Assembly: GCA_017396025.1 (NCBI GenBank)
Contig: JAFQNF010000010.1
Location: 1 to 64,000, forward strand
Source of the DNA: a bacterium
GTDB taxonomy: Bacteria > Cyanobacteriota > Vampirovibrionia > Gastranaerophilales > Gastranaerophilaceae
Length of the DNA stretch: 64,000 nucleotides
Reading direction: 5' to 3'
Positions 14,899 through 22,830 of the stretch are shown here, one piece after another (the stretch's first letter is position 1; the number at the start of each line of letters is the position of its first letter). Both the position numbers and the translations under genes were made by a program. Below the pieces are notes generated by a model, which ran no database searches, was not told the origin of the DNA, and worked only from the letters and a program-made list of their open reading frames with translations.

Positions 14899-14925
14899 AA
14901 AAAGGCCCTTATTCGGGCCTTTTTT
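14899..14925. terminator. Terminator after rubrerythrin
   Basis: The hairpin AAAGGCCC / GGGCCTTTT is flanked by A and T runs and works in both directions between convergent genes. Confidence 0.85.
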
Positions 14926-17047
14926 ATATTTCATATTTGACTAAATACTTTCTTAAATTAGAAAGATTATCTGACATATCATGCCAAGCAGAGTATATAT
15001 CCATTGGAATACCAAACATATGTTCTGGGAAGGTTTTATAATCTATTGTCGGATGAAAACCTAATTTTTCTTCCATCGTTTTCACCGCAATTTTTGGTGT
15101 ACTACTATTTTTTAAAATGTCACTCATTGCGTCTATATCATAACTAACGAAGTAGCCCATTTTTTCCCAAGATTTTATCGTTTCAAGGTATCCTAACAAT
15201 TCTTTTTTATAATTCCTATCATTATTTCTGCCACCAATCCAAGTATTATTAACACAAAGTTTTCCAACACTTTCAATTACTTTTTCAGCAATATCACCAG
15301 CACTACCAGTATGCCTTGTAGGCTTTATTCCATTAGAATCACAGAATGTCTTCCAAGCTGAATAATTTTTTATTGCATCATCAATATCATTTCCTTTATT
15401 TTTCCCATAGCTAAACATACCAATTGGTCCATCAGCCTGCATGTGAGAATAACCCATCTTTTCTATTACGCTTGGAACAATATCATGAGGGTACATAGAA
15501 CTTTCAAGAAGTTTTACACCTTTAATACCTTCATAATCTGTAATGTTTACTTCCCCAGCTTCTAATTCTGGATTGTATTTAACAATAACAGAACCTTCTG
15601 GTATTTTTACAGAGCCATTTGTATATAAATCATTTGGCATACCTTCTATAAATTTACCTTGAGCATTAATCTTACAAGTAGATTCATAAGGCATAATTAA
15701 AGAATAATTGCATATATCCCAAGAACCACCCCTATGTTCAGTAACGGCATGATTCAATGTAAAATGCACGCTATTTCTAGATCCACCCAGTTTGTCCCTT
15801 GTTGATAAAATCATGCCATTTTCTGGCTGATACTTAGTCATATGAACAAGCATTAAAGAATTTGAATCAATATTTCTTGGATTTAGAGGTGTAGGATTTG
15901 TATTTGTAGGGACTAAATCCACATTGCTATTTTTAATAGCACGAACTGTTTTTAAAAACGGATCATTATTTATTTTATCAAGAATAACGCTTGAACCAAC
16001 AATACCTTTTTTAAAGTCCTGTTCCTTTTTACAATATTCTACTATTTTTAAAATTGGTGTATTTTCATCAGATAACAACTCTGAAATAATTTTTTCCGTC
16101 TTATTATTTGTTTGTGAAAGAATACCCAAAAGTGAGTTAACATCCAAATCAGGACGTTTTTTTAATTCTTTCAGCATATTCTTATAAGATTCAACATTGT
16201 CAATATCAATATCACTTAATAATGTTTCCAAGTCATAATCTTTAAGCACAACAGGATAATTTTTTATTTCCTTCAAAATTTCAAGTTGTGGAATAACAGT
16301 TTCTCTATGTATATAATTTTTTTCAAAGAAAGAAAATGATTCCTTGCTCATCATTCCTTTTGTTTTGAATTTAAGTTCAGTAGATAAACTTTCGAAAGAA
16401 CGCCCTGTCTTCGCAATACTCTCATCGACTCTAGCTTGATAATTCTCATATTCTTCATCATTCATATTAGCAAATTTGTTCAAACGATGCGAATTATCTA
16501 TTTCTACAGGGTTTAATAACCCACGTTTTTTAAGAATCAAAACAGTTTTAGGGTCATAATTTCCCAGTGCAATACTTAAAGGAGAAACAAAACCTTGAGA
16601 CGATTTTGAACTCAATATTCCCGACAATGCATCAAAAGCATCTGCACCTTCTTTTGAATAAAAATATCCTTTTTTCACAATTCCGTTAGGAGAATTAACA
16701 TTACCACTCATCAAAGTTTTTATATTTTCAAGGTGTCTGTCTATATTCTCATAGTCCAACTTATCCAAATTCGAAAAGAGTTCTGAATACATGGAAATAT
16801 CATACTTATCATTTTTCAGAAAATCCTTTAAAATCCTTTCAACTTGTTCTGGAGTATATACTTTTTTCGAAGTTTGAGATGCCATTTTAACAGACGCAAC
16901 ACCATAACTAGAAGCCGCAATATCTGCTTTTTGAAAAGAAGAACCAGAATCTACTTTCTGCGTAGATGTTTCCTTCACCGATTCCGAACTTTTACCTTTA
17001 GTTGAACCCAAACCTTTCAACAATTGAGTAAAATTAATATCAAACAT
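14924..17047 (-). CDS. Large uncharacterised protein with conserved-looking C-terminal domain
   Basis: The protein is 707 residues with no signal peptide. The first 80 residues are Ser/Lys-rich and low-complexity, followed by a long helical region. From about residue 395 a compact globular domain begins: SLMLVHMTKYQPENG, then LGGSRNSVHFTLNHAVTEH, GGSWDICNYSLIMPYES, and later SHMQADGPIGMFSY. The first half of this domain recalls hypothetical proteins of host-associated bacteria, but I cannot name a family. It is possibly an effector or an enzyme acting on protein. The last codons reach into the rubrerythrin terminator. Start ATG 17047 is the first in frame; no strong Shine-Dalgarno is visible, so the true start could lie further in. 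Confidence 0.7.
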   Translation of the reverse strand: MFDINFTQLLKGLGSTKGKSSESVKETSTQKVDSGSSFQKADIAASSYGVASVKMASQTSKKVYTPEQVERILKDFLKNDKYDISMYSELFSNLDKLDYENIDRHLENIKTLMSGNVNSPNGIVKKGYFYSKEGADAFDALSGILSSKSSQGFVSPLSIALGNYDPKTVLILKKRGLLNPVEIDNSHRLNKFANMNDEEYENYQARVDESIAKTGRSFESLSTELKFKTKGMMSKESFSFFEKNYIHRETVIPQLEILKEIKNYPVVLKDYDLETLLSDIDIDNVESYKNMLKELKKRPDLDVNSLLGILSQTNNKTEKIISELLSDENTPILKIVEYCKKEQDFKKGIVGSSVILDKINNDPFLKTVRAIKNSNVDLVPTNTNPTPLNPRNIDSNSLMLVHMTKYQPENGMILSTRDKLGGSRNSVHFTLNHAVTEHRGGSWDICNYSLIMPYESTCKINAQGKFIEGMPNDLYTNGSVKIPEGSVIVKYNPELEAGEVNITDYEGIKGVKLLESSMYPHDIVPSVIEKMGYSHMQADGPIGMFSYGKNKGNDIDDAIKNYSAWKTFCDSNGIKPTRHTGSAGDIAEKVIESVGKLCVNNTWIGGRNNDRNYKKELLGYLETIKSWEKMGYFVSYDIDAMSDILKNSSTPKIAVKTMEEKLGFHPTIDYKTFPEHMFGIPMDIYSAWHDMSDNLSNLRKYLVKYEI

Positions 17048-19184: not shown

Positions 19185-19196
19185 CTATTGTTTAAA

Positions 19197-19240
19197 TGGC
19201 GGGGTTGACGCATCAAGATTCGAACTTTTTGAAAGATATT
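19197..19240 (-). pseudogene. Degenerate tRNA 3' end (tRNA-Asp-like tail)
   Basis: On the minus strand the sequence reads GTTCGAATC, a short stretch, then CCCCGCCA, like a T-loop and acceptor end. The outer 13 bases equal those at the 3' end of tRNA-Asp (22753). The T-stem does not pair and no anticodon arm follows, so it is not a functional tRNA. Confidence 0.5.
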
Positions 19241-19355: not shown

Positions 19356-21368
19356 ATGATTAACAGAAATTGGCATAAGACAAATCTTAAAAATATATTT
19401 TCATTTAATAATTTTTATGACAGACAATGGGAAGTTATTGAAAAATTATTAAATGGGGAAAGAGTGTTATTGGTTGAAAAAACATCTTTTGGTAAATCAT
19501 TGTGCTTTCAATATACTGGGAAATACTTGTATGATAATGACAATGGAATGGCAATTATATTTTGTCCATTAATTGCTTTAATGAGAAATCAGATACAAAT
19601 TTTAAAAGATAAAGGAATAAATGCGGAGTCCCTTAATTCTGAACAAACTCCAGAACAAAATAATGAAATTATGAATAAAGCACTGCGGGGAGAAATTTCA
19701 TTATTATACATTGCACCAGAAAGACAAGAATCTCTTGAATGGATAGAATTTATAAGAAAAGTTAAAATATCAATGGTTGTAATTGATGAAGCTCATTGTA
19801 TTTCAACTTGGGGACATGATTTTAGACCAAATTACAAAAGAATTATAGATGTTGTTAAACTACTTCCTACAAATATGCCAGTATTAGCAGTTACAGCAAC
19901 AGCAACAAATAAGGTCGCTGATGATATTGCAACACAATTAGGCAATAATGTATGTATAATGAGAGGTGCTTTAAATCGTGAGAATTTTGAATTATCTGTT
20001 ATAAATGTAAAATCAGAAGATGAGAAAATGCTAAAAATAGCAACAATTCTAAAAAATATAACAGGCACTGGAATAATATATACAGGTACAAGAGCAAATA
20101 CTCAAATCTATTCAGATTGGTTAAAATATTTAGGAGTATCATCTATGCATTATAATGCAGGTATTGGTGCTGAAAATAGGACATCTGTTGAAAATTCTTT
20201 TTACAACAATGAATACAAAGTAATAGTTTCGACTTGCGCTTTTGGTATGGGTATTGATAAACCTGATGTACGATTTATAATTCATACACAAATTACAGAT
20301 TCTTTATTGCAATATTATCAAGAAATTGGTCGTGCAGGTAGAGATGGAAATCCTGCAAAAATCATATTGTTTAATAAAGAAGAAGATAAGAAATTAAGAC
20401 AAAGATTTATTGTTCAATCAAAGCCATCTAAATCAATTTATATTAGAACTATTGAATCAATAAAACAAAAAATAGGTACATTGCATAATTTAATTAAAGA
20501 AATGAATGTAAAACAAAATCAAATGCAAGTAATATTACAAGATTTAGTTGAACAAGATATTATTTATAAGGATGGTCGAAATTACATTTATAAAAATAAT
20601 GATGCAAAATTCGATTATAACAGATTTCAAGCGCTTAAAGATTATAAGTCTTCTGAATTGGATAAAATGATAGAATATACTACGATTTCAACTTGCAGAA
20701 TGAAATACCTTTGCAATTATTTAGAAGATAAAACAGTGGAAGAATGTAAGAAATGTGATAATTGCAAAAGAATTTCATTATCGTTTAACATTGAAAACGA
20801 ATTACTTGAAAAATTAATAGATTTTAAATCACATTATTTTATTGAGGAATATATAGGCAGCAAAGATATCGATAAGGCAATACGTGTAGTATCCTCATCA
20901 TATTATGGGACTTCGAATATTGGCGAAATTATTCACCACTGCAAATATGAAAATGGTGGTGATTTTCCAAAAGAATGTGTAGATAGAGTTGTTTTGGCAT
21001 ATAAAAAATATTATAAACAGCATGACTTAATATTATTTGTTCCTCCAACTATATCTGGTAAATTGGTAGAAAATTTCGCTAAAAAGGTAGCACAGAAACT
21101 AAACATACCATTCTCTGATGCTTTAATAAAGAATAGAGAAACTAAACCTCAAAAAGAATGTGTAAGTGCTATAACAAAGAATGCTAATTTAAAAGATGCT
21201 TTTGATGTTAAGGATTTAAATATTATCAAAGACAAGAATATATTATTAATTGATGATATTATAGATAATGGGGCGACAATAAAAAATATAGCAAAATATT
21301 TGCTACAAAATGGAGCCAAAAAAGTAGATGCTCTTGTTATAGCAAAAACATTAATTGGTGATGAATAA
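19356..21368 (+). CDS. RecQ-family helicase fused to a ComF-like phosphoribosyltransferase
   Basis: The 670-residue protein has three parts. The helicase core (about 1-350) has Walker A KTSFGKS near 43, DEAHCISTWGHDFRPNY at 144-160 and motif VI YQEIGRAGRDG near 321. A RecQ-type zinc region has Cys 447, 453, 464, 467 and 470 (ECKKCDNCKR). The C-terminal 130 residues form a type I phosphoribosyltransferase with the PRPP loop LLIDDIIDNGAT at 630-641, like ComFC. Walker A differs from housekeeping RecQ (usually TGAGKS), and the HRDC domain is replaced by the transferase. It overlaps the DprA-like gene (TAATG) and lies next to tRNA-Asp. RecQ, ComF-like and DprA-like parts together suggest processing of incoming or damaged DNA, perhaps anti-phage. 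That role is inferred. Confidence 0.88.
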   Translation: MINRNWHKTNLKNIFSFNNFYDRQWEVIEKLLNGERVLLVEKTSFGKSLCFQYTGKYLYDNDNGMAIIFCPLIALMRNQIQILKDKGINAESLNSEQTPEQNNEIMNKALRGEISLLYIAPERQESLEWIEFIRKVKISMVVIDEAHCISTWGHDFRPNYKRIIDVVKLLPTNMPVLAVTATATNKVADDIATQLGNNVCIMRGALNRENFELSVINVKSEDEKMLKIATILKNITGTGIIYTGTRANTQIYSDWLKYLGVSSMHYNAGIGAENRTSVENSFYNNEYKVIVSTCAFGMGIDKPDVRFIIHTQITDSLLQYYQEIGRAGRDGNPAKIILFNKEEDKKLRQRFIVQSKPSKSIYIRTIESIKQKIGTLHNLIKEMNVKQNQMQVILQDLVEQDIIYKDGRNYIYKNNDAKFDYNRFQALKDYKSSELDKMIEYTTISTCRMKYLCNYLEDKTVEECKKCDNCKRISLSFNIENELLEKLIDFKSHYFIEEYIGSKDIDKAIRVVSSSYYGTSNIGEIIHHCKYENGGDFPKECVDRVVLAYKKYYKQHDLILFVPPTISGKLVENFAKKVAQKLNIPFSDALIKNRETKPQKECVSAITKNANLKDAFDVKDLNIIKDKNILLIDDIIDNGATIKNIAKYLLQNGAKKVDALVIAKTLIGDE

Positions 21369-22294
21369 TGGAAGAAAATGAATATACATATTGGATAGCA
21401 ATAGCACACTTACCAAGGTGGACACAAGAAAAAATTAATAATCTTGTGATAAAGATAATACATGATGAAAAAATTACACTTAGGGATTTTTTTGAATGCG
21501 ATAATGTTATATTAAGAGATAGATTTAATCTTACAGATAAAGAAATCAGTGATATTAATGATATTAAAATTAAATTACCAAATCTAGCATTTCTTAATGA
21601 AAGGTTATTGAATGAAGGATACAAAATAATCCCAATTAATTCTGAATTGTATCCAAAGACAATGAAAGAAAATTTAAAGGTTAAGTATTCACCTACAATT
21701 ATTTATACGAAAGGCGATGTAAAAATATTACAAGAAGATTCTGTTGCTATTGTCGGGTCGAGAGATGCTAACGAAGATGCTTTAAATTTTACAGATAATA
21801 TTTCAAAGAAAATGTCAGACGAGTATAAAGTTGTTGTAAGTGGCTTTGCAAAAGGTGTTGATAGGCAATCTCTTGATTCTTCAATTAAGTATAATGGAAA
21901 TAGTATAATTGTTCTTCCTCAGGGAATTTTAACCTTTGATAGTGGGTTTAGGAAATATTATAGTCAAATTAATAATGGTGGAGTAATCGTTCTAAGTACA
22001 TTTCCACCTGAAGCAGGCTGGGCAACTGGATTAGCAATGGCAAGGAATAGATATATCTATGGGCTTGCAAAGGAAATTTATGTCGCCCAAACAAGTAATT
22101 CTGGTGGCACATGGGCAGGTGCAACAGACGGATTAAAAAAAGGAAGAAACGTTTTTATATATTATCCAAACAACGATAAACATAGTCCAGCATATGAATT
22201 AATTAAATTGGGAGCTAAACCCATTGACTATAATGGTAATTTATTAAATATTGATATTCCACAAGACACTCAACAATTAAAATTGTTTTCATAA
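21368..22294 (+). CDS. DprA/Smf-like SLOG-fold protein
   Basis: The 308-residue protein has the DprA layout: an N-terminal helical region (1-70), a linker with PINSELYPKTM, then a Rossmann-like SLOG domain (AIVGSRDANED at 127-137; VVVSGFAKGVDRQ at 155-167; ARNRYIYGLAKEIYVAQ at 225-241; SGGTWAGATDGLKKGRNVF). There is no C-terminal winged helix. DprA proteins load RecA on single-stranded DNA in transformation, while SLOG relatives sense nucleotides in immune systems. The start overlaps the stop of the RecQ fusion gene, so the two are translationally coupled. It is more divergent than a housekeeping DprA and is probably dedicated to its RecQ partner. Confidence 0.85.
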   Translation: MEENEYTYWIAIAHLPRWTQEKINNLVIKIIHDEKITLRDFFECDNVILRDRFNLTDKEISDINDIKIKLPNLAFLNERLLNEGYKIIPINSELYPKTMKENLKVKYSPTIIYTKGDVKILQEDSVAIVGSRDANEDALNFTDNISKKMSDEYKVVVSGFAKGVDRQSLDSSIKYNGNSIIVLPQGILTFDSGFRKYYSQINNGGVIVLSTFPPEAGWATGLAMARNRYIYGLAKEIYVAQTSNSGGTWAGATDGLKKGRNVFIYYPNNDKHSPAYELIKLGAKPIDYNGNLLNIDIPQDTQQLKLFS

Positions 22295-22347: not shown

Positions 22348-22590
22348 TTAAAAATTAATGTTTTTAGAAATATGTTTTCGTATTATATTTTCTACATCAA
22401 TTTGTAGTTCAGGGCAATATTCTTCAAAGTATTTTACCATTTGTTTCCTTGCAACATTGGTCAACCAAGTTGCATATAAAACCATTCGTTTTTGTTTCAT
22501 TTTTTCTGATTCTTCTTGCCCTCTATGTAGATGTAGATGTAGATGTATTGTGTATTCATCTACTTTTAAACTTAAACTCTTTTTGTTCAT
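22348..22590 (-). CDS. Small hypothetical protein (80 residues)
   Basis: It starts MNKKSLSLKVDEY and runs into an alternating His-Leu stretch (HLHLHLH) encoded by a hexanucleotide repeat, followed by a basic helix. A strong AGGAGG lies 6 bases before ATG 22590 and a TATAAA just before that, so it is very likely expressed. No family is recognised. The His-rich segment might bind metal. It lies convergent to the DprA-like gene inside the tRNA-Asp-bounded segment, so it may be a third member of that module. Confidence 0.75.
   Translation of the reverse strand: MNKKSLSLKVDEYTIHLHLHLHRGQEESEKMKQKRMVLYATWLTNVARKQMVKYFEEYCPELQIDVENIIRKHISKNINF
22525..22547. repeat. Hexanucleotide tandem repeat ATGTAG (about 4 copies)
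   Basis: Nearly four copies of ATGTAG lie inside the small minus-strand gene and encode the repeated His-Leu pairs. Gain or loss of a unit would keep the frame. Confidence 0.7.
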
Positions 22591-22718: not shown

Positions 22719-22748
22719 AAAAAAGTCCTGTAATAACAGGACTTTTTT
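22719..22748. terminator. Terminator after tRNA-Asp
   Basis: The stem AAAAAAGTCCTGT / ACAGGACTTTTTT with an AATA loop ends 4 bases from the tRNA-Asp 3' end. Confidence 0.8.
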
Positions 22749-22752
22749 TAAA

Positions 22753-22830
22753 TGGCGGGACCGACGAGGCTCGAACTCGCGACCTCCTGCGTGACAGGCA
22801 GGCACTCTAACCAAACTGAGCTACGATCCC
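22753..22830 (-). tRNA. tRNA-Asp (anticodon GTC)
   Basis: The cloverleaf folds completely. The acceptor stem GGGATCG pairs with CGGTCCC. The anticodon stem CCTGC/GCAGG has loop CTGTCAC, giving GTC. The T-arm is GCGAG-TTCGAGC-CTCGT. The 3' CCA is encoded. The 3' end borders the RecQ/DprA segment and a partial copy of it lies 3.5 kb away. Confidence 0.95.

Follow-up and report, generated by a model that had tools for sequence, protein, structure and literature searches.

A PsyrTA (RqlHI) toxin–antitoxin pair in a Gastranaerophilaceae genome whose antitoxin ends in a predicted sliding-clamp-binding motif

We examined a pair of overlapping genes, psyrT and psyrA, on contig JAFQNF010000010.1 of assembly GCA_017396025.1 (Gastranaerophilaceae), of which positions 1 to 64,000 were analysed and are referred to here as the window. 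The identity of the genes was established from a table of open reading frames (ORFs) together with Pfam, PADLOC and NCBIfam profile scans. The two genes and the two features within them on which the argument depends are the following.

19356..21368, + strand: psyrT (rqlH-like), predicted toxin of 670 aa (PADLOC PsyrT, Pfam, structural model)
21243..21278, + strand: phosphoribosyl pyrophosphate (PRPP)-binding loop LLIDDIIDNGAT, PsyrT residues 630-641
21368..22294, + strand: psyrA (rqlI-like), predicted antitoxin of 308 aa, a DprA-like Rossmann protein (PADLOC PsyrA, PF02481, structural model)
22274..22288, + strand: QLKLF, PsyrA residues 303-307, in the disordered tail and predicted to bind the sliding clamp

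The pair is a member of the PsyrTA (RqlHI) toxin–antitoxin family. This assignment follows from the near full-length PADLOC profile match, in which the first gene scored 781 bits as PsyrT (profile positions 8-688 of 689) and the second 239.4 bits as PsyrA (positions 4-299 of 398). The same match led us to reject a new system, and the pair, which the initial annotation had presented without a family name, is thus of a known kind. The domains proposed there for the first gene were confirmed: the psyrT product consists of a RecQ helicase core, then a zinc/winged-helix region and a C-terminal phosphoribosyltransferase, with Pfam scores of 88.6 bits for DEAD, 79.8 for Helicase_C, 33.3 for RecQ_Zn_bind and 45.3 for Pribosyltran, all above their cut-offs. 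The stop codon of psyrT overlaps the psyrA start (TAATG, 21366-21370) and the psyrA product matches DNA_processg_A (PF02481) with 132.8 bits against a cut-off of 29.6, so that the overlap and the DprA/Smf-like second gene also stood as described. The structural models have a mean predicted local distance difference test (pLDDT) score of 88.2 for PsyrT, whose best folds in the PDB are RecQ catalytic cores, and of 92.3 for PsyrA, whose best folds are ShosA (8zva) and pneumococcal DprA (3uqz); a second ShosA structure, 9vzo, is also present in the PDB. Residues 360-670 of PsyrT gave 558 database matches, and most of the 120 listed have both helicase and transferase Pfam domains. Identical gene pairing is also present in the genomes of relatives. 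The helicase-transferase fusion is therefore not a product of chance or of assembly.

Candidates other than PsyrTA were also considered. The Dpd system was rejected because PADLOC scored DpdF at 375 bits versus 781 for PsyrT, and NCBIfam DpdF reached 168 of the 550 bits needed; no Dpd gene was found nearby, none of the eight window neighbours having a PADLOC match. ShosTA was rejected since the toxin is fused to RecQ and since the PADLOC score for ShosA was 112.8 bits versus 239.4 for PsyrA. A housekeeping DprA was rejected for psyrA, with an NCBIfam dprA score of 117.5 bits versus a cut-off of 191.15; the window genome has a separate housekeeping DprA (PF02481, 242 bits), located on contig 43 of that genome (G000). 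Promoter-like sites at the locus numbered 28, versus 26.0 in shuffled sequence.

PsyrTA was first reported by Sberro et al. 2013, as cited in later papers, and PsyrT and PsyrA are orthologues of E. coli RqlH and RqlI (PMC4670107). RqlH without RqlI causes SOS induction, filamentation and loss of growth, and this toxicity depends on the transferase domain and on D663 (PMC4670107). RqlI neutralises RqlH and co-precipitates with the full-length protein, whereas the transferase-less RqlH(1-509) is not co-precipitated; neutralisation persists in RqlI(1-320), from which the helix-turn-helix (HTH) is missing, but RqlI(1-250) gives partial rescue only and none in MG1655 (PMC4670107). Since RqlI(1-320) is functional, the HTH of the antitoxin is usual but does not define the family. 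The window PsyrA has no C-terminal HTH, ending at position 299 of the 398-position profile and measuring 308 aa versus 400 in E. coli RqlI. For alignment we used the EC958 allele (698 aa for RqlH and, from the second start, 400 aa for RqlI), whose lengths equal those given for F11 in PMC4670107; the comparison is with EC958 and not with the F11 sequence itself. RqlH residues K49, D148 and D663, on which the E. coli protein depends, align with K47, D144 and D634 of the window PsyrT. The expectation that homologues would keep the PRPP-site residues held: D633, D634 and D637 of the loop are invariant in 56 aligned PsyrT homologues, but a stricter pattern for the whole loop misses 14 of the 120 homologues among the matches listed. 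Experiments on the family as a defence system form a mixed record. A DprA–phosphoribosyltransferase pair protects against T7 and lambda (PMC9122126), and anti-phage activity of the window pair is plausible.

The new element at this locus is the end of the antitoxin, which lacks the HTH and carries a tail predicted from its residues to dock on the sliding clamp. The window PsyrA terminates in DTQQLKLFS, and a C-terminal QL(S/D)LF is the consensus of bacterial clamp-binding proteins, for which much variability is accepted (PMC9690074). Residues 301-308 fall below a pLDDT of 50 in the model, and a disordered QLKLF tail is what would be expected of a docking motif. The tail thus has the form and the position, near a flexible C-terminus, that mark a clamp client by sequence, and binding to DnaN is predicted. 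The 30 homologues listed as closest (P0241-P0270) comprise 26 with a terminal Q[LM]x[LIM]F and two with a six-residue form (QLELNL and QLTINY), for a total of 28; the motif is missing in P0246 and P0266, which were counted as misses and left out of the table of positions. In these 28 homologues the Q is invariant and the F is found in 26, while the four residues that precede the motif are variable, with an entropy of 2.7 to 3.1 bits.

Negative and positive controls were used to judge how specific this tail is. Either five-residue form was found within the last 12 residues in three of 468 background ORFs, these being ORFs of at least 150 aa in the fetched loci and not annotated genes, and the motif was present in none of 31 housekeeping DprAs. 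One of the background matches is an RNase HII-like ORF of a relative at locus L103 (its frame read by eye) that ends in QLSLL; this protein may be a clamp client too. In relatives, 11 of 12 DnaE loci also carry such a motif, located about 240 residues before the C-terminus, and nine of ten Y-family polymerases carry it about 50 residues before theirs. On the strength of these two counts, the likely clamp clients of this lineage share the same motif word. No report of a clamp-binding motif in PsyrA, RqlI or ShosA was found among the titles, opening lines of abstracts and selected passages of the papers listed, a body of literature that leaves out bioRxiv and most subscription papers.

Across the wider PsyrA family the motif is enriched, not universal. 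After removal of two fragments (P0271 and L088), clustering at 65% identity left 27 tails, nine of which have the strict motif, compared with a mean of 1.19 and a maximum of 5 in 500 shuffles; the density at this level was 3.12 matches per 1000 tail residues versus 0.25 in the core. Clustering at 80% gave 24 of 46 tails with the strict motif (shuffle mean 1.43). Fifteen copies from the phylum-level sample include nine with a motif inside the last 25 residues, and two short and closely related ones among them (L085 and L086) lack the HTH region and have kept the motif. In the 400-aa E. coli RqlI a relaxed form, QPELF, begins at residue 320, within the linker that leads to the HTH. Because the neutralising RqlI(1-320) contains only the first residue of QPELF, this motif is not the inhibitory part of the E. 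coli protein, and its location outside that part therefore fits a second binding partner. ShosA-type proteins have the motif in two of nine cases (QLSLL in L143 and QLNMF in L165); this count omits L156, which lies among housekeeping-like genes, and the unannotated L159, and L143 is the one member that was checked with PADLOC.

The PsyrA of the window is 74% identical to a protein of Candidatus Avigastranaerophilus faecigallinarum (P0250), and TyrS, encoded next to the pair, shares 93% identity with that of a Candidatus Gastranaerophilales bacterium (P0171). The initial annotation had anticipated that no conserved copy would sit at a fixed locus within the genus, and the pair is indeed sporadic there, at variable sites: PsyrT was found in five of 41 genus genomes, one copy (G013) being interrupted at a contig boundary. 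Of the 383 genomes in the family sample, 12 have it at E values up to 1e-110, two of these copies (G116 and G324) being without the transferase. PsyrA was detected in 19 of 386 genomes of the phylum sample, and one of the 15 phylum-level copies examined for the motif shares 90% identity with a protein from a Nostoc plasmid. A PsyrA-like ORF lies downstream in all nine transferase-bearing family copies whose 3' side is visible and in neither of the two transferase-less copies, a gene order that upholds the proposed coupling of a helicase, a ComF-like transferase and a DprA-like SLOG protein in one module. One of the nine is on a G401 contig (L069:3262-5379) with a truncated PsyrA of 265 aa and a neighbour that, read by eye, resembles a TonB receptor; this contig may be mis-binned from Bacteroidota. 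Housekeeping DprA is widespread by comparison, with 58 of 60 family genomes matching PF02481, 56 of them strongly. PsyrT matched 25 of 50,697 phage records, none over 80% of the query, and among viral contigs alignment A2 gave no PsyrA and alignment A1 gave one (L128). An archaeal PsyrT record (L129) has a changed PRPP loop; it is the sole loop of a solo PsyrT that we saw, too few for a claim. No DprA is annotated beside it, and none was apparent by eye in the three forward frames of 1 kb. No PCNA-type motif was found at the end of an archaeal ComF–DprA pair (L130).

Sequence identities among the copies in relatives point to mosaic pairs. The PsyrAs of the window and of loci L041, L042 and L068 share 70-77% mutual identity. 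The PsyrT of L041 is 78% identical to that of the window in the helicase and 82% in the transferase, whereas for both L042 and L068 identity to the window PsyrT drops to 51-52% in the helicase and 45-52% in the transferase, and both carry an N-terminal HRDC domain. The helicase of the L068 PsyrT (genome G395, L068:6025-8679) is closest, at 71% identity, to a transferase-less HRDC RecQ from another member of the family (L072:3338-5488), a likeness in sequence that suggests domain capture. The simplest reading of these identities is that the antitoxin gene, or parts of the toxin, may have been exchanged between elements, and PsyrA would therefore serve quite different transferases. A separate arrangement was observed on an E. 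coli plasmid (L163:1606-4212), where a DprA-like gene is directly followed by a very long RecQ-family gene of 4.7 kb, the reverse of the PsyrTA order; that pair adjoins primase and DnaB-like genes.

The remaining features around the window pair are listed below.

14924-17047, - strand: 707-aa protein, no PADLOC match
19191..19203, no strand: left copy of a 13-nt direct repeat, exact match
22348..22590, - strand: 80-aa ORF lying between psyrA and tRNA-Asp, matched by neither Pfam nor PADLOC; it may be cargo or not a gene
22747..22759, no strand: right copy of the 13-nt direct repeat, exact match, overlapping the tRNA-Asp 3' end
22753..22830, - strand: tRNA-Asp(gtc), right border of the segment (Rfam, which found tRNA only)

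The two matches of the 13-nt repeat, which frame the segment, compare with 0.05 expected, and one of 100 shuffles reached two; the repeats are suggestive of an old integration at tRNA-Asp. A gapped search for tRNA-derived borders, that is, for copies of the tRNA-Asp 3' end, was rejected since its scores lay within those of ten shuffles, and two exact repeats alone, of 13 nt and 18 nt, are therefore given here, as suggestive. The 18-nt repeat was found in G021 (L042), where the pair is flanked on one side by tRNA-Leu and on the other by an exact 18-nt copy of the tRNA-Leu 3' end (4460 and 9450); the close relative G018 (L043) has a single copy of this 18-mer in the stretch fetched. Twelve stretches from relatives in which tRNA-Asp adjoins glyS, covering 0.5 to about 13 kb left of the tRNA, contain none of psyrTA, maa and tyrS, and the arrangement in the window is therefore a variable site.

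Proximity to known defence genes, proposed at the outset, was seen in several relatives, the PADLOC and Pfam scans of their neighbours covering ten proteins each and not every ORF. In G011 the pair adjoins KwaA- and KwaB-like genes (85 and 46 bits), and the same stretch has a serine recombinase beside tRNA-His; in G274 a type II restriction enzyme and two methyltransferases are encoded upstream of the pair. A retron-type reverse transcriptase (G395), TnsB- and TnsC-like genes (G129) and a type I-like methylase (G013) were found near the pair in other genomes. No defence gene was seen beside the pair in G018 and G021, whose neighbours were read and not profile-scanned. Outside the lineage, PsyrTA is found within a type I restriction-modification (RM) operon on an E. 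coli plasmid (L092:511-10590) and within a BREX operon on an Acinetobacter plasmid (L093:1-11004), an arrangement that looks as if PsyrTA guarded its host RM and BREX operons. On an E. coli chromosome (L097:2501-7272), an IS3-type element interrupts the psyrT of the RM-nested pair, whose psyrA is annotated as intact. The viral contig (L128:566-11084) carries, by eye, genes for a CD-NTase, a patatin-like protein, a regulator, PsyrTA and type I RM-like proteins in a row, and its PsyrA ends in KQSSLFE. A Pseudomonas filamentous phage record (L157:148-3987) has annotated ShosTA directly beside Kiwa (KwaAB), an arrangement comparable to that of PsyrTA by KwaAB-like genes in G011.

Taken as a whole, we give slightly better than even chances to a PsyrTA module in which PsyrA both restrains the PsyrT transferase and docks on the sliding clamp through QLKLF, thereby sensing the replication fork. 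The sequence itself shows the domains, the retained residues, the gene order and the motif with its conservation; for the window copy we infer the docking, the trigger and the defence role. In such a module the QLKLF tail would hold PsyrA on the clamp and the complex would likely ride with the fork, while PsyrT would move along DNA and carry its transferase there, silent as long as PsyrA is bound. A phage that replaces, blocks or strips the clamp, or collapse of the fork, would pull PsyrA off or alter it, and the freed transferase would then poison DNA metabolism (SOS induction, filamentation and growth arrest), ending both the infection and the cell. A broader version, to which we give a little less than even odds, is that DprA-like antitoxins of transferase toxins are replisome sensors, with PsyrA and at least some ShosA proteins docked on the clamp via QLxLF, a RecQ–phosphoribosyltransferase genotoxin held at the fork, and this toxin released when a phage takes over or disables the host clamp. 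If this were true, the sliding clamp would be a host component under guard, and PsyrTA would be what guards it.

Several observations weigh against clamp docking, or against a strict toxin–antitoxin and defence role. The 28 close homologues with the motif are related and not independent, 18 of the 27 PsyrA tails at 65% clustering lack the strict motif, and seven of the nine ShosA-type proteins lack the motif. The 18 tails include the three E. coli and Acinetobacter copies inspected, two having only the relaxed QPELF and one (L093) none. Nearly all RqlH-bearing Gram-positive bacteria have RqlH without RqlI (PMC4670107), and at a Sinorhizobium locus (L094:2914-6422) a full psyrT is annotated beside a psyrA whose frame is interrupted by stop codons, an argument against strict addiction; because of these two cases, the toxin is not always lethal alone. 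One E. coli PsyrTA gave no detectable protection (PMC12409345), and none of the eight neighbours of the window copy has a PADLOC match.

The alternative that best survives is an ordinary PsyrTA without clamp docking, in which QLKLF would be a contact to PsyrT or a folding element and the trigger would lie elsewhere, for example in single-stranded DNA sensed by the DprA fold. Membership in PsyrTA supports it equally well, many PsyrAs lack the strict motif, and DprA proteins bind single-stranded DNA (PMC9122126). However, the motif is disordered in the PsyrA model, it recurs beside very different PsyrT proteins, and the matching region of the E. coli protein is dispensable for neutralisation, so that we regard this alternative as rather unlikely. 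A module for DNA uptake or repair related to ComF and DprA, and not a toxin–antitoxin or defence system, would account for the RecQ, ComF-like and DprA-like parts, and PMC4670107 considers a connection with transformation. We consider it improbable, since the housekeeping DprA is a separate gene that most family genomes sampled possess, whereas few have the pair, and since the published orthologues are toxic and neutralised. The initial annotation suggested a nucleotide signal, sensed or produced by the SLOG or transferase part. The PRPP loop and the DprA-type SLOG fold are intact, and SLOG proteins act as nucleotide sensors in other systems, but this reading is highly improbable, as no finding speaks for such a signal, no separate effector gene was found with the pair (again, eight neighbours without a PADLOC match), and the published E. 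coli orthologues act by direct binding. These behave as a transferase-dependent toxin and an antitoxin that binds it (PMC4670107).

A clamp-binding tail on the antitoxin would bear on two questions that the literature consulted leaves without an answer, the trigger of PsyrTA and the reason why its toxin is a helicase. It would link the helicase and the antitoxin to the replication fork within a single mechanism, and the sliding clamp would become one more host function that may be under surveillance by bacterial immunity. Clamp docking by the tail would also fit the SOS induction and filamentation reported for RqlH.

Finally, we compared the window pair with known systems. It shares with PsyrTA/RqlHI of P. 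syringae and E. coli F11 the RecQ–phosphoribosyltransferase fusion, the overlapping downstream DprA-like partner and the residues K49, D148 and D663, but its antitoxin has no HTH and ends in QLKLF, whereas the E. coli antitoxin has only the relaxed QPELF, placed in the linker ahead of its HTH. ShosTA likewise has a DprA-like antitoxin of a phosphoribosyltransferase, with ShosA (8zva) as the best solved fold for the window PsyrA and the tail motif in two of nine ShosA-type proteins; however, ShosT is without a RecQ helicase and the gene order is often otherwise at the fetched loci. SocAB of C. crescentus, likewise a toxin–antitoxin system, is connected with the sliding clamp by a clamp-binding motif, but in that case it is the toxin, SocB, that binds the clamp and blocks it (PMC9690074), whereas in the window pair the antitoxin is predicted to bind it. 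Hachiman (HamAB) resembles the proposed module in that a sensor helicase restrains an effector until DNA damage is met; its effector is a nuclease and its helicase is a different one, so that the likeness is one of logic only and not of membership.

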